Shown here piece after piece: positions 16,705-35,961 of a stretch of DNA of 64,000 nucleotides (its first letter is position 1; the number at the start of each line of letters is the position of its first letter). Source of the DNA: Vreelandella piezotolerans (GTDB taxonomy: Bacteria > Pseudomonadota > Gammaproteobacteria > Pseudomonadales > Halomonadaceae); the NCBI RefSeq assembly GCF_012427705.1, contig NZ_CP048602.1:3534001-3598000 (forward strand), in the 5' to 3' direction. Made by a program: the position numbers and the translations under genes. The notes under the pieces are model-generated. The model did not search any database. It was not told the DNA's origin and was given only the letters and a program-made list of their open reading frames with translations.

Positions 16705-16744
16705 TCCAATATCTTTCGGACAGAAAGCCATACCCAGGAGGTAT
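16705..16744. promoter_or_regulatory. BenM/CatM-type operator over the regulator's ribosome-binding site
   Basis: ATAC-CCAGGAG-GTAT (16730-16744) is a perfect match to the ATAC-N7-GTAT dyad known for BenM and CatM of Acinetobacter. A block TCCAATATCTTTC (16705-16717) lies 12 nt to its left, the same arrangement as at catA and catB. The dyad contains the Shine-Dalgarno AGGAGGT of the LysR gene starting at 16746, so binding should block the regulator's own expression. The geometry points to the minus-strand usp gene as the activated target. Confidence 0.7.
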
Positions 16745-16745
16745 A

Positions 16746-17648
16746 ATGGAGCTACGCCATCTTAGATACTTCTGCGTGGTTGCCGAAGAGCTAAACTTCA
16801 CGTCTGCCGCAGAGCGGCTCCATATGTCGCAACCTCCGCTTTCTCGTCAGATCAAGCAGTTGGAGCAAGAGGTAGGCACGGAACTGTTCGAGCGCAGTTC
16901 ACGAGGCCTACAGCTCACCCCATCAGGCATTTTCTTTCAACAACACGCCATACAAATATTAGAAAAAGTCGATGTTACGGTGGAGGCTACTCGCCATATG
17001 GCGCGCCATAAACGTCAGCTATTTGGGATTGGCTTTGTGCCTTCGGTTTTCTATGGGCAGTTGCCCACGCTCGTGCGTGATTTAAGACAAATGGACAATG
17101 TCGAGCTATCGTTAGCGGAGCTGACGACGGTGCAGCAAATTCAGGCTTTGAAAGCCGGGCGGATCGATATGGGGTTTGGCCGTATCAGAATCGACGACCC
17201 CGATGTGGAGCAGGACATTCTTTTCGAGGAGCCCATTATCGCGGCGTTACCCAGCGGCCACCCGCTCGAAGGAACGACCCCCAGCTGTGAAGAGCTTGCC
17301 CGCTACCCCCTCATTCTCTTTCCCGCCAAACCACGCCCGAGCTTAGCCGACATGGTACTTGGCATTTTTCGTAGGCGAGGCTTGAAGGTTCAGGTCTTTC
17401 AAGAAGCGAACGAGGTGCAAACGGCACTCAGCCTCGTCGCTTCTGGCATTGGCATCACGCTCGTACCGGAACAAGTCAAGCGTGTGCAGCGAGATGGCAT
17501 CACCTATGTCTATTTAGCGGATAGCAGTATCACTTCCCCCGTTATCTGTAGCCGTCGCCGTGGTGAAAAGCCATCTCACGTCATGCAAACGGCCAATGCC
17601 ATTTTGGATGTGCTAGTCGATAACCGACGCTCGGGACGGTATCCGTAG
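16746..17648 (+). CDS. BenM/CatM-like LysR regulator of benzoate and catechol genes
   Basis: A 300-residue LysR-type regulator. MELRHLRYFCVVAEELNF, then AAERLHMSQPPLSRQIKQLE, is the winged helix-turn-helix of the BenM/CatM/CatR group. The effector domain has the diagnostic order GIGFVPSVFYGQLP then QIQALKAGRIDMGFGRI, closely parallel to CatM. Family members bind cis,cis-muconate (BenM also benzoate) and activate ben and cat operons. The ATG at 16746 follows AGGAGGT; an upstream in-frame ATG at 16683 lacks such support. The operator over its ribosome-binding site suggests self-repression. It lies 10 kb from benA but next to usp and BenE-family genes. Whether it is closer to BenM or CatM cannot be told by eye. 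Confidence 0.87.
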   Translation: MELRHLRYFCVVAEELNFTSAAERLHMSQPPLSRQIKQLEQEVGTELFERSSRGLQLTPSGIFFQQHAIQILEKVDVTVEATRHMARHKRQLFGIGFVPSVFYGQLPTLVRDLRQMDNVELSLAELTTVQQIQALKAGRIDMGFGRIRIDDPDVEQDILFEEPIIAALPSGHPLEGTTPSCEELARYPLILFPAKPRPSLADMVLGIFRRRGLKVQVFQEANEVQTALSLVASGIGITLVPEQVKRVQRDGITYVYLADSSITSPVICSRRRGEKPSHVMQTANAILDVLVDNRRSGRYP

Positions 17649-17668
17649 CCTCACACGCATCGATCGCA

Positions 17669-18475: not shown

Positions 18476-18509
18476 TCCTCTCCAGTGACGGTGTCAGCCG
18501 CCTTTGTTG

Positions 18510-19697: not shown

Positions 19698-19737
19698 ACC
19701 CACAGTATCCCAACGCGATTAAGGGTCACTACCCTGT

Positions 19738-19779
19738 GTAATGGCCTGGCAAAGAGAGCTCGGCCAGGCCTTCCATTAC
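19738..19779. terminator. Long hairpin between livF and the BenE-family gene
   Basis: GTAATGG-CCTGGC (19738-19750) pairs with GCCAGG and CCATTAC (19763-19768 and 19773-19779), leaving a 4-nt bulge and a 12-nt loop. It overlaps the livF stop codon. No U-run follows on the minus strand, so it may be a processing or attenuation site rather than a full terminator. Confidence 0.45.
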
Positions 19780-20507
19780 GCAACGCCCAGGTGCGTTTCC
19801 AACAGTCCTGGGTTATTCCTGAGCCCCTGTGAATCACCGCTGTACTTCACTTCCCCTTTCACTAACAGCAAGTGCTTCTCAGCCACTTCCAGCAGGTTAT
19901 CGATGTTTTTATCGACGATGATCGTCGAGATGCCCGTGGCCTTGATAGTGCGAATGATGTTCCAGATTTCATCGCGTATCAGCGGCGCCAAGCCTTCGGT
20001 GGCTTCATCGAGGATCATCAGATCGGGGTTCGTCGTCAGCGCTCGACCAATCGAGAGCATCTGCTGCTCCCCGCCCGACAGCAGCGCGCCATCATGGTTC
20101 ATGCGTTGCCCCAGGCGCGGAAACGTGTCCAGCACGCGTTCCATGGTCCAGGGGGTCTCTCCCCGCTCATTGGGGCGCGCCGCCATAATGAGATGCTCAC
20201 GCACGCTGATCCCAGGAAAGATGCCACGCCCTTCGGGTACGTAGCCGATTCCCTGACGCATCAACTGCCATGGGCGTCGTTTCGCGGTCGACACGCCCTT
20301 GATATAAACGTCCCCACGGCGTGGTGGCACAAAACCGAGGATCGACTTCAACGTGGTGGTTTTTCCCATGCCGTTACGCCCTAACAAACTGAGCGTCTCT
20401 CCGGGCATTAGGGTCACATCGACGCCGTGCAACACATGGCTTTCGCCATAGTAGGCGTGCAGCCCGCGGGCTTCGATGAGGGGAGTCACGGTTGCGTCTG
20501 TGGTCAT
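19776..20507 (-). CDS. LivF-type ABC ATPase (branched-chain/aromatic importer)
   Basis: A 243-residue ATPase of the LivF/HAAT group. Walker A GRNGMGKTT (about 45), signature LLSGGEQQMLSIGRAL (about 145) and Walker B DLMILDEATEGLAP are present. It energises import by the LivH/LivM pair encoded upstream. It overlaps livG by 4 nt (ATGA) with AAGGAG before it. The system lies directly behind catA1-benA1-benB1, so an aromatic acid such as benzoate is a likelier cargo than branched-chain amino acids; similar HAAT systems serve aromatic acids in other bacteria. Confidence 0.9.
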   Translation of the reverse strand: MTTDATVTPLIEARGLHAYYGESHVLHGVDVTLMPGETLSLLGRNGMGKTTTLKSILGFVPPRRGDVYIKGVSTAKRRPWQLMRQGIGYVPEGRGIFPGISVREHLIMAARPNERGETPWTMERVLDTFPRLGQRMNHDGALLSGGEQQMLSIGRALTTNPDLMILDEATEGLAPLIRDEIWNIIRTIKATGISTIIVDKNIDNLLEVAEKHLLLVKGEVKYSGDSQGLRNNPGLLETHLGVA

Positions 20508-21271
20508 GCGGTTACTCCTTCGTCGTGACGTCCCAAGTAGACATCGCGCACCTTGTCGCTGGTACGTATCTGCTCCGTCGGGCCGCTTTCTAGGACACAG
20601 CCATCGACCATGACCGTGATGCGATTGGCCAAGCGGAAAACCGAATCCATATCGTGCTCGATCAACACTAGGGTGTAGCGGTCGGTCAAACTGGCGAGCA
20701 GCTCCGTGACCTGCGCCGTCTCTTCACGCCCCATGCCGGCCATCGGTTCGTCCAGCAGCATCAAGGAGGGTGCCGTAGCCAGCACCATGGCGATCTGAAG
20801 CTGGCGCTGCTCGCCGTAACTCATGTCCGAGGCGGTCGTGTGCGCCCGGTGGTTCAGCTGACAGGTTTCCAGCACCTCTTGGGCGCGCTCGCTCACCTGC
20901 TGCGCCGTGTGACGGGAACGCCAGCTGCCCAACACGCCGCCCATATGGATGCGTGCCGCTAGCTCACAATTCTGCAAGCAGCTAAGGCGTGGAAAAATAT
21001 TGGTTTTCTGATGGCTGCGCCCAATGCCCAAGCGTGCAATTTGGCGAGCACTTTTGCCTTGAATCGCTTTTTGTCGATAGAGCACCTGGCCTTCCGACGG
21101 GGGGATCTCACCGGAGAGCAAATTGATCAAGGTGCTTTTGCCGGCGCCGTTGGGGCCCAAAATTGCATGTATTTCGTGGGCTTTCACATCAAAGTCCACG
21201 TCATTGACGGCAACGAGGCCACCAAAACGACGCGTCAAGCCCTGGGTGGCTAATACGATGTCATCACTCAT
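20504..21271 (-). CDS. LivG-type ABC ATPase (branched-chain/aromatic importer)
   Basis: A 255-residue ATPase, partner of the LivF-type subunit. Walker A GPNGAGKST (about 38), signature MSYGEQRQLQIAMVL (about 155) and Walker B LMLLDEPMAGMGREE are present; the Y in SYGE is typical of LivG. The C-terminal extension after the H-loop (LIEHDMD) also fits LivG. It is separated from livM by only 2 nt. Confidence 0.9.
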   Translation of the reverse strand: MSDDIVLATQGLTRRFGGLVAVNDVDFDVKAHEIHAILGPNGAGKSTLINLLSGEIPPSEGQVLYRQKAIQGKSARQIARLGIGRSHQKTNIFPRLSCLQNCELAARIHMGGVLGSWRSRHTAQQVSERAQEVLETCQLNHRAHTTASDMSYGEQRQLQIAMVLATAPSLMLLDEPMAGMGREETAQVTELLASLTDRYTLVLIEHDMDSVFRLANRITVMVDGCVLESGPTEQIRTSDKVRDVYLGRHDEGVTA

Positions 21272-21273
21272 GG

Positions 21274-22329
21274 CTAGTCCACCTTACTCTGTGTCACGGG
21301 CTGGGCGGAGACGGTCGCCTTTTCCGGCGCGTCATTGGCTGTCGTGCGGCGTTTGCGTGCCCAGGGAGGCGCGATCATCAGGCCTGCCACACCGCGCGGC
21401 AGCACCAACACTGCCACGATGATGGTCAGCCCCATCAAAATGGGCCAATGTGTCGTGGCATGCTCATAGACGAACAGCAGTATTTCATACGCGAAGGCAC
21501 CTAGAATGGGGCCAAAGATGGTGCCTATGCCGCCCAGAATCAGCATCATCAGTACCTCGCCGGACGTGTGCCAGCCGAGCTGGGCTGGATTGGCGAAGCC
21601 GTACTGCATCGCCGCCAGCATGCCGGCAATCGAAGCCATCACCCCGGCAATCACGAAAGCGATCAGCTTGTAACCACTGGTGGCATAGCCCAGGGCCTGC
21701 ATGCGGTGCTCGTTATCATGAATGCCGTCCAGCACCTGACCGAAGTAGGAGCGGGTCAGCCAGCGCAGAAAGAGGTACCCCGCCAACAGCGTTGCCAGGC
21801 AGAAGTAGAAGAAACTGTAAGGGTCATCCAAATCGACTAGCAGGGTATCGCCCACGGCCAAGCTGGGGCGGAACATGATGAAGACACCATCGGTGCCCCC
21901 CGCGAACTGAGACGTGCTAATGAAGTAGTAAAGCATCTGACCGAACGCCAGCGTCGTCATGATGAAGAAGATACCTTTGGTGCGAATGACCAAGAGGCCG
22001 ACGATGAGCCCAACACAGGCCGACACGCCGATCACCAGAGGCAGCATCCACCACATGGAGGCTGGGCTAAAGTCAGGGCTGGCGAGGGCAAGCGTATAGG
22101 CGCCTAACCCGAAAAAGAGCGCGTGCCCCAGGCTCACCAGACCCACGATGCCCACGAGCAAATCGAGGCTCATGGCAAACAGCGCGAGAATCAGCATCAA
22201 GGTCAGCTTCTCCAGCATGAAATTGGCCTGATTGCCGAAGACCGCCTCGCCCCACAGCGGAAAGGTTGCCACTAGCGCCGTCAGTACCAACATGAGGTAG
22301 GCAACGCGCTTGGGATATCTATGTAACAT
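21274..22329 (-). CDS. LivM-type ABC permease
   Basis: A 351-residue inner-membrane subunit with about ten hydrophobic helices. MSLDLLVGIVGLVSLGHALFFGLGAY is the conserved LivM start region (given here only as SLGHALFFGLGAY), and the EAA-like part near LGGIGTIFGPILGAF lies towards the C-terminus. The last about 30 residues are hydrophilic. GAGGAG precedes the ATG. It forms the channel with the LivH-type subunit. Confidence 0.9.
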   Translation of the reverse strand: MLHRYPKRVAYLMLVLTALVATFPLWGEAVFGNQANFMLEKLTLMLILALFAMSLDLLVGIVGLVSLGHALFFGLGAYTLALASPDFSPASMWWMLPLVIGVSACVGLIVGLLVIRTKGIFFIMTTLAFGQMLYYFISTSQFAGGTDGVFIMFRPSLAVGDTLLVDLDDPYSFFYFCLATLLAGYLFLRWLTRSYFGQVLDGIHDNEHRMQALGYATSGYKLIAFVIAGVMASIAGMLAAMQYGFANPAQLGWHTSGEVLMMLILGGIGTIFGPILGAFAYEILLFVYEHATTHWPILMGLTIIVAVLVLPRGVAGLMIAPPWARKRRTTANDAPEKATVSAQPVTQSKVD

Positions 22330-22341
22330 TGCTTGTTCTCC

Positions 22342-23202
22342 TCACGCGAAAAGACCGCGCGGTTTCACCAAAAGAACCGCTGCCATGATCAGGTAGATCA
22401 CCATGCTGGCGAGACTGGGAATGAGCACAGCGCCGAAGGTCGTGGCCATACCGATGATGATGGCCCCCCAAAAGGCACCCTTGATGGAGCCAATCCCCCC
22501 GATGACCACGACCACGAAGCAGGTGATCAAAATACTGTCACCCATGCCGGGGGCAATCGACGTGAGCGGCGCGGCAATCATGCCGGCAAAGGCGGTGAGC
22601 GCCACACCCACGCTAAAAATCAGTGTGAAGAGCGTACGGACATTGATACCGAGCCCCTCCACCATATCGCGATTCACGGCACCGGCCCGGATGATGATGC
22701 CCAGACGGGTATGGCGAATGACGCCATAGATGACGCCGGCCAACACCAGACAAACGCCCATGACGAAGAGCCGATAGACCGAATACTGCAGGTTGTCGGT
22801 GAGTTGGATACTGGCGTCGAACGGCGCAGGTACCGGCACGCGATGCACGTCGCCGCCCCAGATGATTCGCTGGGCTTCGTTGAGCACTAAAATCAACCCA
22901 AAGGTCAGCAGCACTTGATAGAGATGGTCGCGCTTGTAGAGCGTGTCGAGAAACAGCCGCTCGATGACCAGGCCGAGTGCGATAGCGATGGGGATCGCAA
23001 CCAAGATGGCCAACCAGAAGTTGCCGAAACGCATGGTCAGGTCATACACCAAATAGGCACCGATCATGTACATGGCACCATGGGCCAAATTGATGATGCC
23101 CATGATCCCAAAAATCAGCGTTAACCCACTGGCTATCAAAAACAGCAGCAACCCATACTGGAGCCCATTGAGCAGCTGGACACCAAAAAATGCGAGATCC
23201 AT
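22342..23202 (-). CDS. LivH-type ABC permease
   Basis: A 286-residue permease with about eight helices. The start MDLAFFGVQLLNGLQYGLLL, then GIMGIINLAHGAMYMIGAYL (N-A-H-G motif), is diagnostic of LivH. The late VVVIGGIGSIKGAFWGAI is the cytoplasmic coupling loop. I chose the ATG at 23202 because GGAGGGG lies just upstream; a frame open to 23250 has no such signal. It follows the binding-protein gene by 64 bp with a hairpin between. Confidence 0.9.
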   Translation of the reverse strand: MDLAFFGVQLLNGLQYGLLLFLIASGLTLIFGIMGIINLAHGAMYMIGAYLVYDLTMRFGNFWLAILVAIPIAIALGLVIERLFLDTLYKRDHLYQVLLTFGLILVLNEAQRIIWGGDVHRVPVPAPFDASIQLTDNLQYSVYRLFVMGVCLVLAGVIYGVIRHTRLGIIIRAGAVNRDMVEGLGINVRTLFTLIFSVGVALTAFAGMIAAPLTSIAPGMGDSILITCFVVVVIGGIGSIKGAFWGAIIIGMATTFGAVLIPSLASMVIYLIMAAVLLVKPRGLFA

Positions 23203-23224
23203 AAGACCCCTCCGAGCATAAAAG

Positions 23225-23248
23225 GGGAAGCGGGATTGCCCCGCTCCC
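23225..23248 (-). other. Intergenic hairpin after the binding-protein gene
   Basis: AGCGGG (23229-23234) pairs with CCCGCT (23240-23245), extended by GGG/CCC across a one-base bulge. It lies between the liv-type binding protein and livH. Hairpins here often stabilise the upstream mRNA so that the receptor is made in excess over the permease. Confidence 0.4.
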
Positions 23249-23266
23249 AAGCTGTACGAAGTGTCG

Positions 23267-24439
23267 TTACATCTGACAGGCGTCGTCGGGCACTTCTAGA
23301 TTCTCGGCAGCAATGCTGACGACCTCGTGCTTGCCGTCACGAATCTCGCGGAGGTAGACATTCTGGATGGGGTGGTGGGAATCCGAGAAGCTCATCGGAC
23401 CGCGCGGACTAGCTAACTGAACATTTGCCAAGACATCGATTAGTCGATCGCGGTCTGACGTGTCTCCACCGAGTACATTGAGCGCCTGGGCTAGCATCAT
23501 GCCGGTATCGTAGCCTTGCACCGCGTACGTATCCGGCGCTTCTCCGTAGGCGTCTTCATAGGCGGCCACGAACGAGCGGTTCGCGTCGTTTTCTAGCGTC
23601 TCTGCGTAATGAAGCGTGGTCATGACGCCTTCACCCGCATCGCCCAGGGCGGCTAGATTACCTTCGGTAAGGAACCCGGACCCCAGCAGCGGGATGCTCT
23701 CGTTGAGCCCCGCCGCCGCGTAATCCCTCACGAAGCTGACACCACCGCCCCCCGCGAAGAAGGTGTACACGGCATCCGGCTGAAGGCTGGCAATCTGCGT
23801 CAGGTAACTCTGGAATTCGGTGCTCGGAAACGGCACGAGAATTTGCTGGACGATGTCACCGCCTTCGGCGGTAAAGGCCTCTTCAAAGCCCTCCAGGTCT
23901 TCTTTCCCCCCTGCATAGTCCCAGGTAATGGTCACGATGTTTCTATGCCCTTGCTCGTAGGCCACTTTTCCCATGGGATAGCTGTCTTGCCACATACTAA
24001 AGGAGGTGCGAAACACGTTCGGCATGCACAGTTCGTTGGTCGCCGCCCCAAGCCCTGCATTCGGAATGATCGTAATGGCGCCGGTTTGTTTGGCCACGCG
24101 CAGCATGCCCATCGCCACGCCTGAGTGTACCGGACCTATCACGAAATCCACGTTGTCACCGTTGACCAAACGACTCATGTTTTGCGGAGCCTTGGAAGGA
24201 TCGGCTTCGGAATCCAACTCGACGTACTCGACGTCGCGACCGCCCAACTGCCCCCCCTCCTGCTCGATGGCCAGCTTCAAGCCGTTAGTGATGGCTTCGC
24301 CCAGCGCTGTATAGGTGCCTGAATAAGGCAGCATCAGCCCCAGTTTCACGGGATCTTCATTCGCCGAAAGGCCCATGGCCGACAGCGTCAGAGTGGTACC
24401 CAGAGCAGCAACGAGAGTGGTCTTTTTGACATTTTTCAT
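23267..24439 (-). CDS. Periplasmic binding protein of the Liv-type ABC importer
   Basis: A 390-residue secreted receptor of the Leu/Ile/Val-binding (HAAT, type I) fold. The N-terminus MKNVKKTTLVAALG with cleavage near SANE is a Sec signal. VKLGLMLPYSGTYTALGEAI and FVIGPVHSGVAMGM are typical of family members bound to aromatic or short organic acids. The ATG at 24439 is chosen because it gives a proper signal peptide; the reading frame is open to 24508. It lies 101 bp downstream of benB1, with no terminator seen between, so the importer is probably transcribed with catA1-benA1-benB1. Benzoate as ligand is inferred only from this context. Confidence 0.88.
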   Translation of the reverse strand: MKNVKKTTLVAALGTTLTLSAMGLSANEDPVKLGLMLPYSGTYTALGEAITNGLKLAIEQEGGQLGGRDVEYVELDSEADPSKAPQNMSRLVNGDNVDFVIGPVHSGVAMGMLRVAKQTGAITIIPNAGLGAATNELCMPNVFRTSFSMWQDSYPMGKVAYEQGHRNIVTITWDYAGGKEDLEGFEEAFTAEGGDIVQQILVPFPSTEFQSYLTQIASLQPDAVYTFFAGGGGVSFVRDYAAAGLNESIPLLGSGFLTEGNLAALGDAGEGVMTTLHYAETLENDANRSFVAAYEDAYGEAPDTYAVQGYDTGMMLAQALNVLGGDTSDRDRLIDVLANVQLASPRGPMSFSDSHHPIQNVYLREIRDGKHEVVSIAAENLEVPDDACQM

Positions 24440-24540
24440 TATGGATTCACCAGGATTGTGTTGTTTTAGATTGTTATGTCCATCGCGCTTCGCGTTGATG
24501 GAAGACACGATCAGCGACGTCCCTGTCTCATCGATGCGGC

Positions 24541-25029
24541 TTATACGTGATACACGTCGATGACTTGATGGATGTAGTCGTTGTTCAGCTGCACGACTTT
24601 TCTTGTGATTAGCGGGCGCTCGCCCGAGACGTCCAGGGTGTAGAAGCTCGTGCCGAAGAAGCTGTCCGTCTTCTTGTAGCGGTGGCTCAGCGTGTGCCAG
24701 TTGAACCGCAGCTCGGCCGTCTGGTCGTCTTGCGACAGGATTTCGAGGTTGGTCACCTGGTGCGTGGTGCGCGGCTCCGGCGTGCTCGCCCCGCTGCGCT
24801 CGGTCTTGATCCGGTAGACCCGATCTTCCAGCCCTTCGCGGTTGGGGTAGTAGATCAACGAGATCTCGCTGTGCGGATCGCGGGTGAGCTGATCATCGTC
24901 GTCCCAGGCGGGCATCCAGAACTCGGCGTCCTTACGATACAGCGCAAGCCACTCGTCCCACTCGCGGTCATCTAGTAGGCGCGCTTCGCGGTATAAAAAG
25001 GCTTGGATGTCGTGATAGCTGATGCTCAT
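24541..25029 (-). CDS. benB: Benzoate 1,2-dioxygenase beta subunit, copy 1
   Basis: The 162-residue small subunit of the benzoate 1,2-dioxygenase oxygenase component, an alpha3-beta3 enzyme. It has the NTF2-like fold of ring-hydroxylating dioxygenase beta subunits; YHDIQAFLYREARLLDDREW and DDQLTRDPHSEISLIYYPNR are typical. It has a structural role and no metal centre. GAGAGGAGAG precedes the ATG, and it follows benA by 32 bp. The protein is identical to the one at 31159-31647. No benC or benD follows this copy; the binding-protein gene of an ABC importer comes next. Confidence 0.94.
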   Translation of the reverse strand: MSISYHDIQAFLYREARLLDDREWDEWLALYRKDAEFWMPAWDDDDQLTRDPHSEISLIYYPNREGLEDRVYRIKTERSGASTPEPRTTHQVTNLEILSQDDQTAELRFNWHTLSHRYKKTDSFFGTSFYTLDVSGERPLITRKVVQLNNDYIHQVIDVYHV

Positions 25030-25061
25030 GGCGTTCTCTCCTCTCTTCTGGCATCGGACGT

Positions 25062-26429
25062 TTAGGCGGTCGCCGTGGCGATGAACTGGCGACGCTCTTT
25101 GTCGATGGCGCGCAGCATTTCGCTGACCCAGTGTTGGTGGTGCAGCACGTAGAGCCCTTCGTCTTCGGGGGAGGCGCCGCTGAGCAGCGGTTTCATGTCG
25201 ATGGCCTGGGCGTTCTCATCAGCCCCTTCGATCCATTGTTGGGCGCCGCGGGAGAGGTCGTTCCATTCGGCCAACGCGCCGTTGTAGCCTTCTTGGCAGG
25301 CGCGGAACTCTTCGAGGTCGTCCGGCGTGCCCATGCCGGAGACGTTGAAGAAGTCTTCGTATTGGCGGATACGTACGCGACGGTTTTCGGCCGACTCGCC
25401 TTTGGGGGCGAAGCAGTAGATCGTAACTTCGGTTCTGTTGACGTCGATGGGGCGCAGCACGCGGATCTGTGTGGAGAACTGGTCCATCAGGTAGACGTTG
25501 GGGTAGAGGCAGAGGTTGCGCGTCTGGTTGACGATGGCGTCGGCACGCGCCTCGCCTAGCTGCTCTTGGATCCACTCTTTTTCTTGGTAGACCGGGCGCA
25601 CCTCGGGGTTGAGTAGCCGGGTCCAGAGCATCATGTGGCCGTTTTCGTAGGAGTAGAAGCCGCCTTTACTCTTCGACCAGCCGTCGGCGTCCACCGCCTT
25701 GGTACCACCGGCGTCGTAATTGCGGCGCTCCATGGTGGAGGCGTAGTTCCAGTGCACGGAGCTGACGTGATAGCCGTCGGCGCCGTTTTCGGCCTGCAGT
25801 TTCCAGTTGCCGGTGTAGGTGTAGGAGGAGGTGCCACGCAGCACTTCCAGACCCTCGGGGGCTTGGTCGACGATGTTGTCGATGACCTTGGTGGTTTCGC
25901 CCAGGTGCTGCTCGAGGGGCAGCACGTCGTCGCTGAGGCTGCCGAACAGGAAGCCTTTGTAGTTCTCGAAGCGCGGTAGGCGCTTGAGGTTGTGGGAGCC
26001 GTCTTGCTTGAACTGGTCGGGGTAGGCGCCAGTCTTTTCGTTTTTGGCTTTGAGCAGCTGGCCGTCGTTTTTGAAGGTCCAGCCGTGGAACGGGCAAGTG
26101 AAGGTGCCTTTGTTGCCGCGCTTGCGGCGGCATAGGGTGGCACCGCGGTGGGCGCAGGCGTTGATCAGGCCGTGCAGTTCGCCCTGCTTGTCGCGGGTGA
26201 TGACGATCGGCTGACGGCCAACGGTGGTGGTGAAGTAGTCGCCCGGCTCGGCCACTTGGCTCTCGTGGGCCAGAAAGACCCAGTTGCCTTCGAAGATGTG
26301 CTTCATCTCCAGTTCGAAAAAGGCGGGGTCGGTGAACATGCTGCGGTGGCAGCGGAAAATGCCGTGATCCGGGTCGTCTTGTACCGCTCCGCGCACGCGG
26401 GCTTCGAGTTGATCAAGCTGTGTGGTCAT
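25062..26429 (-). CDS. benA: Benzoate 1,2-dioxygenase alpha subunit, copy 1
   Basis: The 455-residue catalytic subunit of benzoate 1,2-dioxygenase, which with BenB and reductase BenC adds O2 to benzoate to give the cis-diol carboxylate. The Rieske motif C-x-H ... C-x2-H is seen in CAHRGATLC and TFTCPFHGW (about residues 92-116). The mononuclear iron ligands fit [14 protein letters not shown] (two His, about 220) plus a later Asp. GAGGAGAG precedes the ATG. Length is typical. The protein is identical to copy 2. It must use the single BenC at 30109. Close relatives act on toluate or 2-halobenzoate, so benzoate is the likely but not the only substrate. Confidence 0.94.
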
Positions 26430-26470
26430 GATCGCTCTCCTCGTTAGGATGTCACGCTGTTAGGGCGTCA

Positions 26471-26496: not shown

Positions 26497-26511
26497 CTTG
26501 AACAGGGGGGG

Positions 26512-27486: not shown

Positions 27487-27636
27487 GGTTAAAGCCTATT
27501 GTTAGTTTTATCGTTATTTATCTCCCAATCACCGAATGGACGTTTGTCGATGAAGTGATTGAGTATCTACTTAGGACATGAGGACACTGTGTCTCTGTAC
27601 TCTTCACGACAATATCGAACAAACACCCATTAACAG

Positions 27637-27676
27637 ACCAATATCGTTTGAGTTCTCACCCATACTTCGAAGGTAT
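27637..27676. promoter_or_regulatory. BenM/CatM-type operator of catA1
   Basis: ATAC-TTCGAAG-GTAT (27662-27676) fits the ATAC-N7-GTAT dyad exactly, and its spacer is itself partly symmetric. ACCAATATCGTTT (27637-27649) lies 12 nt to the left, that is, downstream towards catA1. The same pair with the same spacing occurs before catB and before usp. The companion block, read as ATATTGGT on the minus strand, may be the activation site with a -35 element. The dyad is 176 bp from the catA1 start. Confidence 0.72.
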
Positions 27677-27989: not shown

Positions 27990-29237
27990 CTATCCGCTAT
28001 GTTTCTGGGCCGCTCTACGCGTAAACATGACGTCAAAATCTTTGGTTTCAAAAATGGCCGATACTACCACTCCAAGGACCAGGGCCCAGAACGTTGCGCC
28101 GATTCCCAATATTTGAATACCGGAAGCGGCAATTAAAAAGGCGAACAGCGCTCCTACTTCGTGTTTCTTGCCCGCAAACGCAATGGTCATGGAGGACGTG
28201 ATGACACGCATCAGCGCCAAGCCAGCGATGATGGTGATGAAGTAGCGAGGCGTGGCTTCCAGCAGGCTGACCACATAACCATAGAAAGGCGCCGCCACGA
28301 TAAAAATAGCCCCGGCAATGACCGCTGCGACCCAGCGTTTGTCATGGGCACCGGCCTCCGGTGAGGCGCATACCCCGGTCATGGGTGCCGCGATGCAAGT
28401 ACTGTGTAGATTGAAGAACGATGACACGATGGTTCCGATGCCACCCACGGCCGTGATCGCGTTCGCGGGCGCGTCCTTATAGCCCATTCCTTTGACCAAG
28501 CCCACGCCTGCCGGCGTCTCCATCCCAACCAGAATAATCGCGAGCGGCAACCCATAGGTGAGAAACGCCTCCAGAGTGAACGTCGGCAGAGTGAACTCCG
28601 GAAACCGGATGGTCGCTTGGATTCCCGAAAGATCCACTCCGGTGACTGTCAGGTAAGCAAGCCCTGCCGCCATGGCGATGATGAGCGGGGGAATTTTGCG
28701 AAAGACTCTCGCCGAGATAAAGAAAGCCAACATCATGATCGCGGCTGGCACCATCGCGTTTTCCAGCGGCTTGACCATGTTGAGCCCAAAGCTAAGCAGC
28801 ATACCGCCGACCATGCCCATCACGATTGGCATCGGTATCAACCGCATCACGATGCCCATGACACCGGTCACGCCCGCTATCAGCGTAATGATGCCAGCGA
28901 TAAGACCAGCGCCCAAGGCCGCTTCTAGCCCGATCACCGGAATGACCGCGGCAAACATCAGCGCACCTGGAATGGAGTTTGCCATCGGCAGCGGTAGACG
29001 GTAGTAAGCGGGCATGAACAGCCCAAACAAACCGTTGATCATCAAATAGCTGATGACCCAGATCATGATGAAGGAGGGGTCGAGACCTGCTGACGTGCCC
29101 GCACTGATATGGACGACGCCAACGCTGAGACCTAAGATGCCGGCGACTAACCCAGTACTGGCATTCTCAGCATTGAGGTCACGTAGAAAATCGCGAGGCG
29201 CATGCAGTAAGCTCACGCCTTTTTCTATATGTTTCAC
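27990..29237 (-). CDS. benE: Benzoate/H+ symporter BenE
   Basis: A 415-residue BenE-family carrier of the inner membrane with about twelve helices. MANSIPGALMFAAVIPVIG and PAGVGLVKGMGYKDAPANAI are typical of the family. It lies 74 bp downstream of benD, in the benABCDE order known from Acinetobacter, which supports benzoate uptake. The start is a GTG at 29237 with GGAG seven nt upstream; no ATG is close. A strong terminator follows. It is only distantly like the BenE-family protein at 18510. Confidence 0.9.
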   Translation of the reverse strand: MKHIEKGVSLLHAPRDFLRDLNAENASTGLVAGILGLSVGVVHISAGTSAGLDPSFIMIWVISYLMINGLFGLFMPAYYRLPLPMANSIPGALMFAAVIPVIGLEAALGAGLIAGIITLIAGVTGVMGIVMRLIPMPIVMGMVGGMLLSFGLNMVKPLENAMVPAAIMMLAFFISARVFRKIPPLIIAMAAGLAYLTVTGVDLSGIQATIRFPEFTLPTFTLEAFLTYGLPLAIILVGMETPAGVGLVKGMGYKDAPANAITAVGGIGTIVSSFFNLHSTCIAAPMTGVCASPEAGAHDKRWVAAVIAGAIFIVAAPFYGYVVSLLEATPRYFITIIAGLALMRVITSSMTIAFAGKKHEVGALFAFLIAASGIQILGIGATFWALVLGVVVSAIFETKDFDVMFTRRAAQKHSG

Positions 29238-29311
29238 GGTGTGCTCCAGGGGTTTTTGTAGTATTTAGCGTTATTTTGACAACGGGTTTACGACGATGGC
29301 TAACGGTTCGA

Positions 29312-30112
29312 TTAGCCTTGATCACCCCCACCGACCGGTAGAACGCTCCCTGTGATGTAGCTCGCCTCATCGGACGCCAGAAACAGAATGGGGGCGGCCA
29401 TCTCATCGAGCGTACCGTAGCGCTTCATGAGGCAGCTTTGCTTGGTCTGGTCGATGTGGGCTTGGAACCAAGCGCGCTCGGTGTCATTACTGGGCTCGGG
29501 CGTTCCACGAGAGATGCGGCGCGGTGGCGCTTCGGTGCCGCCAATGCCCGCCGCCACGACACGAATGCCCGCCTCAGCGTACTCAAAAGCCAGCGACTCA
29601 GTGAGTGCGTTGACACCGCCCTTGGCCGCCGAGTAAGGGATACGATGAATCCCTCGTGCCGCCACGGAAGAGACGTTGACGATCACACCCGCGCCCTGGG
29701 ACACCATCGTTGGCAGCGCCGCGCGGCAGCACCATAGCGTCGGCATCAGGGAGCGGGTGATCTCTGCGGAAATTTGCGCTTCGCTAAACTCCGTGAAGGG
29801 TTTGAAATTGATGGCGCCCCCCACGTTATTGATCAAAATATCGATACGCCCAAACGCGGTGACCGCCGACTGCATCGCCTGCTCGGCACCTGCCCAGGTC
29901 TCCAGGTCTGCTTGTACCGCCACCACCTCACGACTGCCCTGACGGATGTCTTCCACGACCTCGTGGATATAGTCAGAGCGGTCTACCAGCACCAGGCGCG
30001 CGCCTTCCATCGCCGCACGTTCGGCCACCCGCCGCCCAATCCCTTGAGCGGCCCCGGTGACGATCATTACTCGGTCCTGAAATCGAGCCCTATCCAAACG
30101 TTGATCGCTCAT
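29312..30112 (-). CDS. benD: Benzoate diol dehydrogenase BenD
   Basis: A 266-residue short-chain dehydrogenase that oxidises and decarboxylates the benzoate cis-diol (1,6-dihydroxycyclohexa-2,4-diene-1-carboxylate) to catechol with NAD+. The cofactor motif TGAAQGIGRRVAE (about 20), NNVGG (about 92) and catalytic Ser-Tyr-Lys in VSSVAARGIHRIPYSAAKGG (about 145-165) are present. Its start overlaps the benC stop (ATGA), so the two are translationally coupled. It is single-copy, unlike benA and benB. Confidence 0.93.
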   Translation of the reverse strand: MSDQRLDRARFQDRVMIVTGAAQGIGRRVAERAAMEGARLVLVDRSDYIHEVVEDIRQGSREVVAVQADLETWAGAEQAMQSAVTAFGRIDILINNVGGAINFKPFTEFSEAQISAEITRSLMPTLWCCRAALPTMVSQGAGVIVNVSSVAARGIHRIPYSAAKGGVNALTESLAFEYAEAGIRVVAAGIGGTEAPPRRISRGTPEPSNDTERAWFQAHIDQTKQSCLMKRYGTLDEMAAPILFLASDEASYITGSVLPVGGGDQG

Positions 30113-31134
30113 GCTGACGCTCCCGCCTGGTTAGGCGTAAACTTTTCATAGTGGAAGCTTTGCGGTTCGATGCCTTCCGTGTCGAAATGCTTGAGCACTG
30201 CGTCGACCATCGGAGGCGGCCCACACAAGTACACATCCACATCCCCGTCATGCATCACGGCGGCATCCATATGGTGGGTCACATACCCTTTTCGCGGGTG
30301 CTCGCTGGCCTCGTCCACCACCACGGTGGCGTAGCTAAAGCTGGGCAGCTTCTCCGCGATCGCCTCCAAGGCATCGATTTTTACCAGATGATCGTCTTTA
30401 TTGACACCGTAAATCATGTGGATGGACGCGTCACAGCCCTTCTCGACCAGCTGCGCTAGCATGGACAAAAAGGGTGCCAGCCCCGTACCGCCTGCCAGCA
30501 TCAGTATCGGGCGCGTGACTTCACGTAGGTAAAAGCTGCCTAACGGGCCTGTCAGTGTAAGCTTGTCACCCACGGCGGCACGGTCGGTCAGATAGCCACT
30601 CATCACCCCATTGGGGATATTGCGAATCAGGAACGTGGCCCGCTGATCGCCTGGCTGAGAGCTAAAAGAGTAAGAGCGATGCAGCTCCGTGCCAGGCACG
30701 TCGATATGGATGTACTGGCCAGGCAAAAAGGCAAGCTCCTGACCCTCCTCCAGTTCGACTACCAGCTCGATGCTGTCTTCGGAGAGCTGCTCGACGGCAG
30801 CGACCGTTCCCTCGACCTTGCCCACCTGGGTTTTACACATCGTAGACGCGACGGGCACTTGGATAACGCAGTCTGAAGAGGGCACCATCTGGCAGGTCAG
30901 CACTTGGCCTTCGGCCGCTTCCTCATCAGAGAGCGCCTCCTCCAGATACTCGTCGCCCATATCGAACTCGCCCTGCTCGCAGTGGCCTTTGCAGGTGCCG
31001 CATACGCCGTCGGAACAGTCCATCGGAAGATTCACTTTCTGGCGGTAAGCCGCGTCAAGAACGGTTTCCCCTTCTTTACAGCCGATGAAACGCGTCACGC
31101 CGTCTTCGAAGTTGAGGGCAATGGTATAGCTCAT
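30109..31134 (-). CDS. benC: Benzoate dioxygenase reductase BenC
   Basis: A 341-residue electron-transfer protein that passes electrons from NADH to the BenAB oxygenase. A plant-type [2Fe-2S] domain comes first (CSDGVCGTCKGHC, then LTCQM; about residues 40-85), followed by an FAD domain (RSYSFSSQP, about 155) and an NAD-binding domain (LAGGTGLAPFLSML, about 215). This order is that of BenC/XylZ. GGAGATTT precedes the ATG. It follows benB2 by 24 bp. Only one copy is present, so it must serve both sets of BenAB. Confidence 0.94.
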   Translation of the reverse strand: MSYTIALNFEDGVTRFIGCKEGETVLDAAYRQKVNLPMDCSDGVCGTCKGHCEQGEFDMGDEYLEEALSDEEAAEGQVLTCQMVPSSDCVIQVPVASTMCKTQVGKVEGTVAAVEQLSEDSIELVVELEEGQELAFLPGQYIHIDVPGTELHRSYSFSSQPGDQRATFLIRNIPNGVMSGYLTDRAAVGDKLTLTGPLGSFYLREVTRPILMLAGGTGLAPFLSMLAQLVEKGCDASIHMIYGVNKDDHLVKIDALEAIAEKLPSFSYATVVVDEASEHPRKGYVTHHMDAAVMHDGDVDVYLCGPPPMVDAVLKHFDTEGIEPQSFHYEKFTPNQAGASA

Positions 31135-31158
31135 GATGAAATCTCCTCTCCCATCGAG

Positions 31159-31647
31159 TCACACGTGATACACGTCGATGACTTGATGGATGTAGTCGTT
31201 GTTCAACTGCACGACTTTTCTTGTGATTAGCGGGCGCTCGCCCGAGACGTCCAGGGTGTAGAAGCTCGTGCCGAAGAAGCTGTCCGTCTTCTTGTAGCGG
31301 TGGCTCAGCGTGTGCCAGTTGAACCGCAGCTCGGCCGTCTGGTCGTCTTGCGACAGGATTTCGAGGTTGGTCACCTGGTGCGTGGTGCGCGGCTCCGGCG
31401 TGCTCGCCCCGCTGCGCTCGGTCTTGATCCGGTAGACCCGATCTTCCAGCCCTTCGCGGTTGGGGTAGTAGATCAACGAGATCTCGCTGTGCGGATCGCG
31501 GGTGAGCTGATCATCGTCGTCCCAGGCGGGCATCCAGAACTCGGCGTCCTTACGATACAGCGCAAGCCACTCGTCCCACTCGCGGTCATCTAGTAGGCGC
31601 GCTTCGCGGTATAAAAAGGCTTGGATGTCGTGATAGCTGATGCTCAT
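31159..31647 (-). CDS. benB: Benzoate 1,2-dioxygenase beta subunit, copy 2
   Basis: A 162-residue small subunit, the same protein as that at 24541-25029. It is in the standard benABCD context: benA 32 bp upstream and benC 24 bp downstream on the same strand. The few base differences from copy 1 are silent and sit at the 3' end. GAGAGGAGAG precedes the ATG. Confidence 0.94.
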   Translation of the reverse strand: MSISYHDIQAFLYREARLLDDREWDEWLALYRKDAEFWMPAWDDDDQLTRDPHSEISLIYYPNREGLEDRVYRIKTERSGASTPEPRTTHQVTNLEILSQDDQTAELRFNWHTLSHRYKKTDSFFGTSFYTLDVSGERPLITRKVVQLNNDYIHQVIDVYHV

Positions 31648-31679
31648 GGCGTTCTCTCCTCTCTTCTGGCATCGGACGT

Positions 31680-33047
31680 TTAGGCGGTCGCCGTGGCGAT
31701 GAACTGGCGACGCTCTTTGTCGATGGCGCGCAGCATTTCGCTGACCCAGTGTTGGTGGTGCAGCACGTAGAGCCCTTCGTCTTCGGGGGAGGCGCCGCTG
31801 AGCAGCGGTTTCATGTCGATGGCCTGGGCGTTCTCATCAGCCCCTTCGATCCATTGTTGGGCGCCGCGGGAGAGGTCGTTCCATTCGGCCAACGCGCCGT
31901 TGTAGCCTTCTTGGCAGGCGCGGAACTCTTCGAGGTCGTCCGGCGTGCCCATGCCGGAGACGTTGAAGAAGTCTTCGTATTGGCGGATACGTACGCGACG
32001 GTTTTCGGCCGACTCGCCTTTGGGGGCGAAGCAGTAGATCGTAACTTCGGTTCTGTTGACGTCGATGGGGCGCAGCACGCGGATCTGTGTGGAGAACTGG
32101 TCCATCAGGTAGACGTTGGGGTAGAGGCAGAGGTTGCGCGTCTGGTTGACGATGGCGTCGGCACGCGCCTCGCCTAGCTGCTCTTGGATCCACTCTTTTT
32201 CTTGGTAGACCGGGCGCACCTCGGGGTTGAGTAGCCGGGTCCAGAGCATCATGTGGCCGTTTTCGTAGGAGTAGAAGCCGCCTTTACTCTTCGACCAGCC
32301 GTCGGCGTCCACCGCCTTGGTACCACCGGCGTCGTAATTGCGGCGCTCCATGGTGGAGGCGTAGTTCCAGTGCACGGAGCTGACGTGATAGCCGTCGGCG
32401 CCGTTTTCGGCCTGCAGTTTCCAGTTGCCGGTGTAGGTGTAGGAGGAGGTGCCACGCAGCACTTCCAGACCCTCGGGGGCTTGGTCGACGATGTTGTCGA
32501 TGACCTTGGTGGTTTCGCCCAGGTGCTGCTCGAGGGGCAGCACGTCGTCGCTGAGGCTGCCGAACAGGAAGCCTTTGTAGTTCTCGAAGCGCGGTAGGCG
32601 CTTGAGGTTGTGGGAGCCGTCTTGCTTGAACTGGTCGGGGTAGGCGCCAGTCTTTTCGTTTTTGGCTTTGAGCAGCTGGCCGTCGTTTTTGAAGGTCCAG
32701 CCGTGGAACGGGCAAGTGAAGGTGCCTTTGTTGCCGCGCTTGCGGCGGCATAGGGTGGCACCGCGGTGGGCGCAGGCGTTGATCAGGCCGTGCAGTTCGC
32801 CCTGCTTGTCGCGGGTGATGACGATCGGCTGACGGCCAACGGTGGTGGTGAAGTAGTCGCCCGGCTCGGCCACTTGGCTCTCGTGGGCCAGAAAGACCCA
32901 GTTGCCTTCGAAGATGTGCTTCATCTCCAGTTCGAAAAAGGCGGGGTCGGTGAACATGCTGCGGTGGCAGCGGAAAATGCCGTGATCCGGGTCGTCTTGT
33001 ACCGCTCCGCGCACGCGGGCTTCGAGTTGATCAAGCTGTGTGGTCAT
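31680..33047 (-). CDS. benA: Benzoate 1,2-dioxygenase alpha subunit, copy 2
   Basis: A 455-residue oxygenase large subunit identical in protein sequence to copy 1, with the same Rieske ([15 protein letters not shown]) and mononuclear iron ([11 protein letters not shown]) motifs. In this copy benB, benC, benD and benE follow in order, so the whole route from benzoate to catechol is on one transcript. The catA stop lies 82 bp upstream, with the same hairpin as in copy 1. Confidence 0.94.
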
Positions 33048-33088
33048 GATCGCTCTCCTCGTTAGGATGTCACGCTGTTAGGGCGTCA

Positions 33089-33114
33089 AGGCGGGCCAAG
33101 GGGAAGGTCCGCCT
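33089..33114 (-). other. Hairpin between catA and benA, copy 2
   Basis: This is the exact repeat of the hairpin at 26471-26496: AGGCGGGCC paired with GGTCCGCCT around an 8-nt loop. Its conservation is part of the general identity of the duplicated block. Confidence 0.4.
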
Positions 33115-33129
33115 CTTGAACAGGGGGGG

Positions 33130-34104
33130 TTATACCTTGGCCGTTCCGGCCAGTTGACTGGCCAGATCCTGCTCGTCTTCCTTGGCGCGGGGGCGGGCGT
33201 GGCGTACCTGCAGCTCGGCGGCGTCGGTGGGCGCTAACTCGACATCGAACACCACATGGGCGAAGGGGCCGTCCAGGTCGCGTTGGGCGATCTCGGTGGG
33301 ATCGTCGATGCGCTCGGCGGGCACCACCAGCTCTTCGCGCGTGGCAAAGGCGAAGTCATCGAAGGTGTAGGGGTCACCGGCGAGGTTGATCTGAGTCGTC
33401 AGGTGTTGATGGCCGGGGGCCGAGACGAAGTAGTGAATGTGCGCCGGACGCTGGCCGTGGCGGCCCAGCGATTTGAGCACGACGTCCGTGGGGGCGCCTT
33501 CGGGCACACCGTAGCCCGACGGGACGATGCTGCGGGCGGTGTAGCGGCCGTCGCGGTCGGCATAGATCGTGCGGCGCATGTTGTACTCGTCCTGGGAAGG
33601 GTCGAAGAACGAGTAGCCGCCTTTGGAGTTGCAGTGCCAGATCTCGACCTTGGCGCCGGGGATCGGCTGGCCGTTCACGTCGCGCACTTGGCCGGTCAGC
33701 CACATGGTCTCGCCGTCGGGATCGCTGCCGTCGTCCATCCGGGCGAAGCCGTCAGCTTCCGGGGCGCCGGCCACGTAGAGCGGGCCTTCAATGGTGCGCG
33801 GGGTGCCGCCGGTGCGCTTGGCTTCGGCGTCGATGGCGTCGTGGCGCATGTCGAGGAAGTGGTCGAACCCCAGCCCCGGCGAGAGCAGGCCGAACTGGGT
33901 CTGGCTACCCAGCGCGTTGAGCAGGTTCACGGCGGCCCAATACTCTTCTTCGGTGACATCGAAGTCGTCGATCAGTTTGAACAGGTCACCTACCAACCGA
34001 TGCACGATCTGCTTGGCGCGATCATTGCCGCCTGCCTGATCCAGGCCGGCCACGGCGTTGAGAAAGTCTTGAACCTCGGGCGTGTCGAAGATTTTTACGG
34101 TCAT
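33130..34104 (-). CDS. catA: Catechol 1,2-dioxygenase, copy 2
   Basis: A 324-residue intradiol dioxygenase identical in protein sequence to copy 1 (one silent base change, 34021). It lies in the cat gene order catB-catC-catA, 63 bp after catC. The sequence before the ATG has GAGCTATCTC and no clear Shine-Dalgarno, and it is unrelated to the leader of copy 1. Expression should depend on the catB promoter upstream. Confidence 0.94.
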   Translation of the reverse strand: MTVKIFDTPEVQDFLNAVAGLDQAGGNDRAKQIVHRLVGDLFKLIDDFDVTEEEYWAAVNLLNALGSQTQFGLLSPGLGFDHFLDMRHDAIDAEAKRTGGTPRTIEGPLYVAGAPEADGFARMDDGSDPDGETMWLTGQVRDVNGQPIPGAKVEIWHCNSKGGYSFFDPSQDEYNMRRTIYADRDGRYTARSIVPSGYGVPEGAPTDVVLKSLGRHGQRPAHIHYFVSAPGHQHLTTQINLAGDPYTFDDFAFATREELVVPAERIDDPTEIAQRDLDGPFAHVVFDVELAPTDAAELQVRHARPRAKEDEQDLASQLAGTAKV

Positions 34105-34167
34105 GAGATAGCTCGCTACATTATTATAGATGTTATGGATCAGTACCTTGGCGTGCTCCGCCGAGCA

Positions 34168-34458
34168 TTAGCTGTCGTCGTCACGCACGGACGAGGGGTG
34201 GCGGCAAAGCGGCTTGACGCTGATCTCCATGTAGGGGAACAGCGGCAGGTTACTGACCAGCTCTTGAAGCTCGGCATTGTCCTCTACGTCAAAGATACTG
34301 ACGTTCGAGTAGCTACCGGCCACCCGCCACAGGTGGCGCCATTTGCCTTGACGCTGTAGGTCCTGGGAGTACGCTTTTTCGGTTGCCTTGATACTCGCGG
34401 CCTGCTCGGCGGGCATATCGGTCGGCAATTTGACGGTCATCTCGACTTGAAACAGCAT
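34168..34458 (-). CDS. catC: Muconolactone delta-isomerase CatC
   Basis: A 96-residue cytoplasmic enzyme that shifts the double bond of muconolactone to give the beta-ketoadipate enol-lactone. MLFQVEMTVKLPTDMP, WRHLWRVAGSYSNVSIFDVE and LPLFPYMEISVKPLCRHPSS match the family along its length, and 96 residues is the usual size. AAGGAGAG lies 11 nt before the ATG. It stands 48 bp after catB and 63 bp before catA2. Confidence 0.95.
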   Translation of the reverse strand: MLFQVEMTVKLPTDMPAEQAASIKATEKAYSQDLQRQGKWRHLWRVAGSYSNVSIFDVEDNAELQELVSNLPLFPYMEISVKPLCRHPSSVRDDDS

Positions 34459-34506
34459 ATCGATGGCTCTCCTTTTCGTTTGCGGTCTTTGCGTGCGGCG
34501 CGTTGG

Positions 34507-35622
34507 CTAGCGCGCGTAGTGCGCCAACTTATCTTCATCCAAGGTGATCCCCAGACCTGGCCCAGGCGGTAAGGCCACCCCAAATTCGCTGTAGTCGAGA
34601 GGCGACACCACGATATCGTCTTGCAGCAAGAGCGGGCCGAACATTTCCGTTCCCCAGGTCATGGTCGGTAGCGTTGCCCACGTATGCAGCGACGCGGCGG
34701 TACCGATCGTGCCTTCCAGCAAGGTGCCGCCATACAGGCCGATGCCAGCCGCCTGGGCGACATGCGCGAGCTCCAGTGCGCCATAAATCCCGCCCGACTT
34801 GGCGAGTTTCAGTGCAAAGGCTCCGCTGAAGCCGCCGCATACCAAATCAAGGCCGTCACGCGCATCCTGGACGGCCTCATCGGCGAGCATGGGCACATTG
34901 AAGCGGTTCGCCAAACGCACCAACCCCGCATGCTCACGCGCGCCGATGGGCTGCTCGATCAACTCGATACCCGCCTCTTGTAACGACTGAATACCGCGAA
35001 CGGCGGTGGATTCGTCCCACGCTTGATTGACATCGACGCGCACGCTCGCCCGGTCTCCCAAGGCCTCCTTGATGGCCGCTACGTGGCGGACGTCCTGGCC
35101 CACGGGATTGGCGCCAATTTTCAATTTGAAGTCGCAGTGCCGACGCTGCTCTAAACGCAGCATGGCTTCATCGATATCTTTCGCGGTATCGCCACTCGCG
35201 AGCGTCCATAGCACGGGGATATGATCCTGACGCACGCCTCCCAGCAGCTCGGCCACGCTCAACCCCAGGCGCTTGCCTTGGGCATCGAGCAGCGCCATTT
35301 CCAGTGCGGATTTAGCGATCATGTTGCCGCGCGCATGCCGATTGAGCAGCGCGCGGGCGTGGTGAATGTTCTGGGAAGGCTGGCCAATCAGCAGAGGTGC
35401 CAAGTACGTATCGATGTTGCGCTTGATGCTCTCGGGACTTTCCGGGCCATAGGCTAGGCCGCCGATGGTCGTGCCTTCGCCCAACCCCTCGATACCGTCT
35501 GAGTGATGCATGCGGATGATCACCATGGTCTGGCAGGCCATGGTGGTCATCGATAGTTTATGAGGACGGATGGTCGGTAAATCGACCAGAAGCGTCTCTA
35601 TTCGTTGGATAACAGTTGACAT
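34507..35622 (-). CDS. catB: Muconate cycloisomerase CatB
   Basis: A 371-residue enzyme of the enolase superfamily that closes cis,cis-muconate to muconolactone. The catalytic K-x-K is in FKLKIGANP (about 168), the metal ligands are in RVDVNQAWDE, IELIEQPI and LADEAVQD, and a late lysine is in ALKLAKSGG. I chose the ATG at 35622, with GGAG upstream, because it gives the standard MSTVIQRIETLLVDLPTIRP start; the frame stays open to 35712, where it would run into the operator. It is first in the catB-catC-catA2-benABCDE unit. Confidence 0.94.
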   Translation of the reverse strand: MSTVIQRIETLLVDLPTIRPHKLSMTTMACQTMVIIRMHHSDGIEGLGEGTTIGGLAYGPESPESIKRNIDTYLAPLLIGQPSQNIHHARALLNRHARGNMIAKSALEMALLDAQGKRLGLSVAELLGGVRQDHIPVLWTLASGDTAKDIDEAMLRLEQRRHCDFKLKIGANPVGQDVRHVAAIKEALGDRASVRVDVNQAWDESTAVRGIQSLQEAGIELIEQPIGAREHAGLVRLANRFNVPMLADEAVQDARDGLDLVCGGFSGAFALKLAKSGGIYGALELAHVAQAAGIGLYGGTLLEGTIGTAASLHTWATLPTMTWGTEMFGPLLLQDDIVVSPLDYSEFGVALPPGPGLGITLDEDKLAHYAR

Positions 35623-35961
35623 GGCGGCTCCGGCATCAGGCAATCGTTTCGCTATCGAGCAGTTTGCGTGCCCGTGCAAGCCGGAACCAATATTGTTTAA
35701 GTGCGCGTCCATACCAAGGAGGTATCACAAGCGCATGACAGGCTCGGCTATTCAGCCACTTTTTCCCCATAACCCCGAGTGCGAGAGCCGCTGCACGAGA
35801 CGTGCCCTCGCCAGGGGCGCTCAGCGCCGGATAAAGCGCGTATCGATACGCAACCGCGTGTTAAAGAGCCACGCAATCACTTCGCCGTGATACAGAGCGC
35901 CATAAGACAAAAGAATGATCCAAGCGTGTTGCTCGACGCGCACTCGCCTCAAGCGGAGTTT
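35623..35961. other. 339-bp control region upstream of catB
   Basis: No supported gene. The region holds the catB promoter with a perfect BenM/CatM operator (35711-35725). The AAGGAGGT here looks like a ribosome-binding site on the + strand but is the middle of that operator. GC-rich short inverted repeats (near GGGGCGCTCAGCGCC, about 35813-35828) lie closer to the flavoprotein gene and might end its transcript. Confidence 0.6.
35686..35725. promoter_or_regulatory. BenM/CatM-type operator of catB
   Basis: ATAC-CAAGGAG-GTAT (35711-35725) fits the ATAC-N7-GTAT dyad exactly. ACCAATATTGTTT (35686-35698) lies 12 nt to the left, towards catB, as at catA1 and usp. The dyad is 89 bp upstream of the catB start codon. 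In Acinetobacter CatM and BenM bind such dyads and activate catB and benA with muconate; the same is expected here. Confidence 0.75.

Follow-up and report, generated by a model that had tools for sequence, protein, structure and literature searches.

At three places in a 64,000-nucleotide stretch of the Vreelandella piezotolerans genome (the window; contig NZ_CP048602.1, positions 3534001-3598000) the dyad ATAC-N7-GTAT lies beside genes of the cat and ben type, a LysR-type regulator gene and a usp gene. This raises the question of whether the three belong to one regulon, and how a universal stress protein gene came to face such a site. The literature, in its accessible parts, gives the dyad, a two-step binding to a recognition and an activation site, and a second site at the -35 (PMC3112211, PMC6449761, PMC6628147, PMC5002191, PMC9705993). 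The original prediction was that each dyad has a companion block at a fixed distance, located at the -35, and that one BenM/CatM regulator controls all three promoters. Our analysis makes it likely that each composite of block and dyad combines a CatR-type operator with a promoter, served by one CatR-like regulator, and that sites 1 and 3 go back to a single operator of a divergent catR-catB pair.

A composite element at three sites

All three predicted dyads are present in the sequence of the window, and the companion block ends 12 nt to the left of each (Table 1). The window holds four ATAC-N7-GTAT dyads, against 0.31 expected, and four were reached in 0/100 shuffles. The composite was defined as CCAATATNNTT-N13-ATAC-N7-GTAT (39 bp) and searched for in the whole genome, which is one contig of 3,945,801 bp. 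The dyad by itself occurs 22 times (reversed-pattern control, 8), and under a uniform base model these 22 dyads would be expected to carry about 0.0002 blocks. Perfect composites were found three times in the 3.95-Mb genome, exclusively at sites 1-3, and none was found anywhere at one or two mismatches. Three matches have three mismatches, one of them at 323105 and coinciding with one of the 18 dyads outside the window. The reversed composite gave six matches within three mismatches, and a control pattern with one extra base gave none at up to two mismatches and seven at three. The many random genomic matches that the original prediction had named as evidence against itself did not appear in the scan that it had proposed. 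The composite is confirmed as real and specific within this genome. A wider regulon beyond the three sites was rejected, as the genome has no further composite at up to two mismatches. No Rfam family reached its gathering score in the region 16000-36500.

Table 1. Predicted sites, promoter elements and genes in the window (window coordinates)
Feature	Position	Strand	Basis or remark
usp, encoding a universal stress protein; faces site 1	16131..16571	-	Usp domain on longer ORF
Fourth dyad ATACTTTTTAGGTAT, usp leader	16629..16643	.	perfect ATAC-N7-GTAT, without block
Site 1 companion block, putative activation site/-35	16705..16717	-	TCCAATATCTTTC / CCAATATCTTTC; ATATTGG towards usp
Site 1 recognition dyad (predicted) ATACCCAGGAGGTAT	16730..16744	.	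sequence
CatR-like LysR-type regulator, predicted binder	16746..17648	+	HTH_1 + LysR_substrate
liv-type ABC transporter downstream of benB1, with binding protein, two permeases and two ATPases	19776..24508	-	Pfam
benB1	24541..25029	-	Pfam
benA1	25062..26429	-	Pfam; benA TIGR03229 743 bits, just below cut-off 781
catA1, catechol 1,2-dioxygenase	26512..27486	-	TIGR02439, 473 bits, cut-off 392
-10-like GATATT, catA1 promoter	27611..27616	-	position common to catA class
Site 2 companion block ACCAATATCGTTT, ATATTGG towards catA1	27637..27649	-	sequence and genome scan
Site 2 recognition dyad (predicted) ATACTTCGAAGGTAT	27662..27676	.	sequence
catA (33130-34104), then benA, benB, benC, benD, benE (27990-29237), behind catBC	27990..34104	-	Pfam for catA, benC, benD, benE
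catC, 96-codon frame between catB and catA	34168..34458	-	translation; named by position alone
catB, muconate cycloisomerase	34507..35622	-	TIGR02534, 501 bits, cut-off 335
-10-like CAAACTG, catB promoter	35660..35666	-	offset as in relatives' catB promoters
Site 3 companion block ACCAATATTGTTT, ATATTGG towards catB	35686..35698	-	sequence and genome scan
Site 3 recognition dyad (predicted) ATACCAAGGAGGTAT	35711..35725	.	sequence

The start codons facing the composites lie at 134 nt (usp, site 1), 151 nt (catA1, site 2) and 64 nt (catB, site 3). The usp start was set at an ATG from which relatives align at residue 1. The listed catB frame extends to 35712, into the site 3 dyad, and the start was taken as the ATG at 35622 because related catB proteins align with their first residue at that point.

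The surroundings hold further genes of note. Directly upstream of the catB operator, in the region 35962-39324, there is a salicylate 1-monooxygenase gene (TIGR03219, 584 bits), and two further LysR genes lie nearby (37461-38369 and 38410-39324). Two transporters belong to the BenE family, one at 18510-19703 and the other being benE of the long run, which scores 165 bits, below the NCBIfam benE cut-off of 203.

The regulator and the promoters

The product of the regulator gene is a LysR-type protein (HTH_1 92.1 bits, LysR_substrate 120.9 bits; cut-offs 26.6 and 28), and its closest PDB match is BenM (219 bits; 41.3% identity over 281 aligned positions). The second-nearest LysR protein in the same genome is only 32% identical. 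The scores are far below the NCBIfam cut-offs for BenM (NF040709; 221 vs 600 bits) and CatM (NF040710; 205 vs 580 bits), and among 25 of 53 NCBIfam families none reached its cut-off. Ser100 and Thr128 of the regulator align with Ser99 and Thr128 of BenM, which we take to be the residues that hold muconate. At the position of Arg160 of BenM the regulator has Phe, and BenM residue 293 falls outside the alignment. In the accessible part of the BenM literature, Arg160 is needed for the benzoate response and forms the benzoate site together with Tyr293 (PMC6628147). The BenM/CatM label of the original prediction is therefore not borne out, and the protein is better named CatR-like, because it misses both cut-offs and has Phe at Arg160. 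Muconate would be its inducer, by inference, since the equivalents of Ser99 and Thr128 are kept while Arg160 is replaced. The genome also contains 17 matches to AraC-type HTH domains, and benABC could be under another regulator.

In catB and catA promoters -10-like elements follow ATATTGG with constant spacing, which supports the placing of the companion at the -35. In catB promoters CAATCAAACTG follows ATATTGG at a single offset, with a mean of 9.8/11 matches in 15 loci of the genus and 9.75/11 in 28 other loci whose catB is at least 78% identical. The catA promoters have TCGATATT or a CCAGAATC-like sequence at nearly the same offset. A weaker version, typically CAAGCTG (mean 6.32/11), stands at the catB offset in the 22 usp-facing promoters, a score equalled anywhere by 1/2000 column shuffles. 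In the ten genomes of the genus that lack usp beside catR, the best -10 match is displaced to +4 (mean 6.9), and the score at the catB offset is unremarkable. The most constant part of the block is TTGG towards the gene, as a -35 would predict.

Since the other loci had been found by motif, ten plasmid loci of the CatR type were chosen by protein (ten of the 40 matches listed, among 649 records). All ten have the dyad, seven perfect and three at 7/8, and in eight of them CCAA, reading TTGG towards the gene, occurs at the spacing of the composite. It is absent there from the two loci of Azospirillum and Novosphingobium.

Taken together, the following mechanism is proposed. The dyad would be the high-affinity recognition site, which the CatR-like protein would occupy without inducer. 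With cis,cis-muconate the protein would extend to the block, the putative activation site that merges into the -35, about 17-19 bp ahead of the -10, and recruit polymerase. The promoters activated in this way would be those of catBCA-benABCDE, of catA1-benA1B1-liv and probably of usp. The idea of one regulator acting at three promoters is supported, as one regulon, by computation; for its usp part the support is purely comparative, and the usp promoter of the window itself has been remodelled.

Separation of catR from catB and the association with usp

Among the genomes of the genus, 42/82 have the composite at up to two mismatches, and it is perfect in 32 of these, with one to three copies each. 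The regulator search covered 61 of the 82 genomes, to which the following counts are restricted. An orthologue was found in 15/37 and 17/24 genomes; the perfect composite occurs in 32/32 genomes with the orthologue and in 0/29 without it. In the family, 96/201 genomes match the regulator, giving at least 30 loci, of which nine from outside the genus served as outgroup. A class-wide sample of 369 genomes, scanned at up to one mismatch, had perfect composites in two genomes alone (G000 and G005), and four others had one match with one mismatch each. A contig scan yielded at least 120 stretches. Among the matches listed, named genomes with a composite beside catR or catB belong to Halomonas, Vreelandella, Chromohalobacter, Marinobacter, Zobellella, Oceanisphaera, Alteromonas, Pseudomonas and Variovorax; in Marinobacter, Pseudomonas and other Halomonadaceae the composite is also found in the space separating catR and catB. 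The 145 composites collected (130 after duplicate removal) were all found by motif and are therefore unable to measure block frequency. Composite-like matches were also seen near LysR genes in Streptosporangium and Streptomyces (L080, L086, L094), with the regulator start 29-32 nt from the dyad.

In the window the Shine-Dalgarno sequence of the regulator, AGGAGG (16736-16741), lies inside the site 1 dyad. The site 3 dyad also holds AGGAGG, yet no regulator gene starts alongside, and the site 2 dyad is without it. Where a LysR gene starts within 6 nt of a dyad, GGAGG or AGGAG is found within the dyad in 70/74 loci (59/59 with catB opposite, 6/6 with usp, 5/9 others). The same sequences were found in 0/13 dyads with the regulator further away, in 0/10 dyads at catA, in 7/16 catB dyads without an adjacent regulator (one such locus, L117, is a contig end with an adjacent start visible), and in 0/1 and 5/16 of the remaining locus classes. 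The operator and the translation start of catR therefore share bases, and many operators at catB in the genus seem, from these counts, to be remnants of one that once adjoined catR. Searches of open-licence papers brought up no report of a Shine-Dalgarno sequence within a CatR dyad.

Outside the genus, catR and catB are divergent and flank the composite in 8/9 family loci found by protein, and likewise in G055; the ninth locus (L224) has the composite, and no catB was found in its flank. Orthologues thus have the layout of the CatR group, unlike the window, where the neighbour is usp. The gene order of the genus is operator and catR, then convergent genes, then catB and its operator, and the convergent gene adjoining catR is catA in 8/10 genomes lacking usp. 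No remnant of catR turned up next to the catB operators in the genus. In the ancestral state a single operator would have served divergent catR and catB, its dyad doubling as the Shine-Dalgarno site of catR. The split would be explained most simply by a tandem duplication of catRBCA followed by reciprocal loss, one copy losing catR and the other catBCA, a route that we infer and that would leave one operator at catB and another at catR facing usp.

The usp gene stands beside catR in 22/32 genomes and is absent from ten, absence meaning no match within a flank of up to 1.5 kb left of catR. With usp, the block has at least 9/12 matches in 22/22 genomes and the dyad is perfect in 22/22 (the site 1 block has 9/12 matches to the genus consensus). 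In the genomes lacking usp, the block is below 9 in 10/10 and the dyad perfect in 2/10, and the usp leader is partly alignable in 7/10. The association of usp and block has a Fisher p of 1.6e-8, which ignores descent and uses the 9/12 cut-off chosen post hoc with the data already seen. On the tree, usp and block need three changes each, and a paired test has two or three pairs, too few for significance. The degenerate upstream sequence of G101 is common to the G020 clade and that of G063 to G064, and the catR tree separates them, which suggests recombination. Control of usp cannot be called proven, and the case for it is weakened, because these shared upstream sequences conflict with the catR tree.

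The fourth dyad of the window, in the usp leader, had been overlooked in the original prediction; it was rejected as a fourth composite, as the block is absent. A perfect counterpart occurs in G067 as well, and G063, G064 and G087 each have one at a similar place in the leader. Weaker versions (6/8) occur in nine other genomes, a score no better than that of shuffles. In the same leader a stretch around ACTTTAGT (about 16586-16628) is conserved in 23/32 genomes of the genus. Between the site 1 block and a TATAAT there is an inverted repeat, AAATGCCA-N7-TGGCATTT (16681-16703), which is identical in G067.

Site 1 might instead serve only autorepression of the regulator, with usp a bystander that has its own promoter and the block a leftover. 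We regard this as rather unlikely. It would agree with the dyad covering the Shine-Dalgarno sequence of the regulator, and PMC9705993, in its accessible part, names CatR on the recognition site as the presumed repressor of catR itself. Furthermore, the window and its near twin G067 lack the catB-like -10 in the usp promoter; both have a TATAAT further down, which in the window (16669-16674) is too distant from TTGG for pairing. However, where usp is lacking, the block on the catR side is degenerate in 10/10 genomes and the dyad imperfect in 8/10, whereas catR and GGAG are kept in 10/10, and the usp-facing promoters as a set retain the catB-like -10 at the catB offset.

The decay of the block where usp is lacking, counted as one to three independent events, fits a capture of usp. 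We tentatively suggest, at somewhat less than even confidence, that after tandem duplication of catRBCA and reciprocal loss the stranded catB promoter was taken over by usp, which would now be muconate-inducible. The operator would stay with the regulator because it is embedded in the translation start of catR, and would decay where usp is absent. Searches of open-licence papers brought up no report of usp under CatR. A usp gene is in the predicted regulon of AphT, not CatR, in the accessible part of PMC6449761, and this regulon is a precedent.

Descent of the operators and comparison with known systems

The likeness of the three composites could also reflect recent copying of one segment and not the use of all three, which we hold to be very improbable. 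There is indeed a near-identical duplication in the window: catA-benAB is present at 24545-27487 and 31163-34105 (2,943 bp, 99.93% identical, about 6.6 kb apart), so that benA and benB of catBCA-benABCDE are the second copy. Sites 1 and 3, moreover, probably descend from one ancestral operator. However, the duplicated segment breaks off a single base short of the catA start codons and leaves the operators outside, so that it does not account for the resemblance of sites 2 and 3; an origin of these sites as copies of the duplication was rejected. Between the sites the 12-nt spacers vary but block and dyad are kept, and every class of site shows a consensus of its own across many genomes. A reading of the dyads as Shine-Dalgarno sequences or accidental matches, with a composite that regulates nothing, might be suggested by the AGGAGG in sites 1 and 3 and by the frequency of the dyad in the genome. 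It can practically be dismissed: site 2 is free of AGGAGG, the genome has three perfect composites and not one with one or two mismatches, these three stand at cat/ben promoters or the regulator, and they are conserved across the genus and beyond.

The reading as CatR-type operators is close to known systems, as described in the accessible parts of the respective papers. The operator of P. putida catBCA likewise consists of a recognition dyad and a downstream site occupied with muconate, beside divergent catR-catB (PMC9705993). CatR of P. putida ND6 protects 26 bp without muconate and 48 bp with it (PMC9705993), and the 39-bp composite fits within the latter. The legend of Fig. 11 of that paper refers to logos built on CatR sites in the intergenic regions between catR and catB, and the block may already be visible in them (PMC9705993). 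Pseudomonas loci carry the same composite as the window; in contrast to the P. putida operator, the window has catR separate from catB, each with its own operator, that of catR facing usp, and a third operator at catA1-benA1B1. In Acinetobacter baylyi the BenM/CatM sites at benA and catB have ATAC-N7-GTAT as Site 1, and Site 2 overlaps the benA -35 (PMC6628147), but the regulator of the window differs from BenM/CatM in the cut-offs and at Arg160 as given above. For Betaproteobacteria, one regulator (CatR/CatM/BenM) over cat and ben operons is likewise described, with the consensus AkACC-N5-GGTAT, which sites 1 and 3 match in full and site 2 in all but one base; the accessible text describes the dyad only, unlike the composite of the window (PMC6449761). 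Halomonas organivorans, of the same family, has the same genes as catRBCA-benAB, with catR divergent from catBCA as in the 8/9 loci from outside the genus. There catR adjoins catB, whereas the two are split in the window, and no operator is described in the accessible text (PMC3112211).

A known mechanism mostly explains the composite, and what is new is the division of the operator between catR and catB, the overlap of dyad and Shine-Dalgarno bases and the prediction for usp. For CatR-type targets, the 39-bp composite is far more selective than the 15-bp dyad (3 vs 22 genome matches). Genomes of the genus form a natural series showing a regulator parted from its operon while each side retained an operator. 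If the proposed capture is true, an operator that doubles as a Shine-Dalgarno sequence moves with its regulator and enlists neighbouring genes into the regulon. If usp is muconate-inducible, aromatic catabolism would be linked to stress protection, and the regulon would have gained a gene by rearrangement alone.
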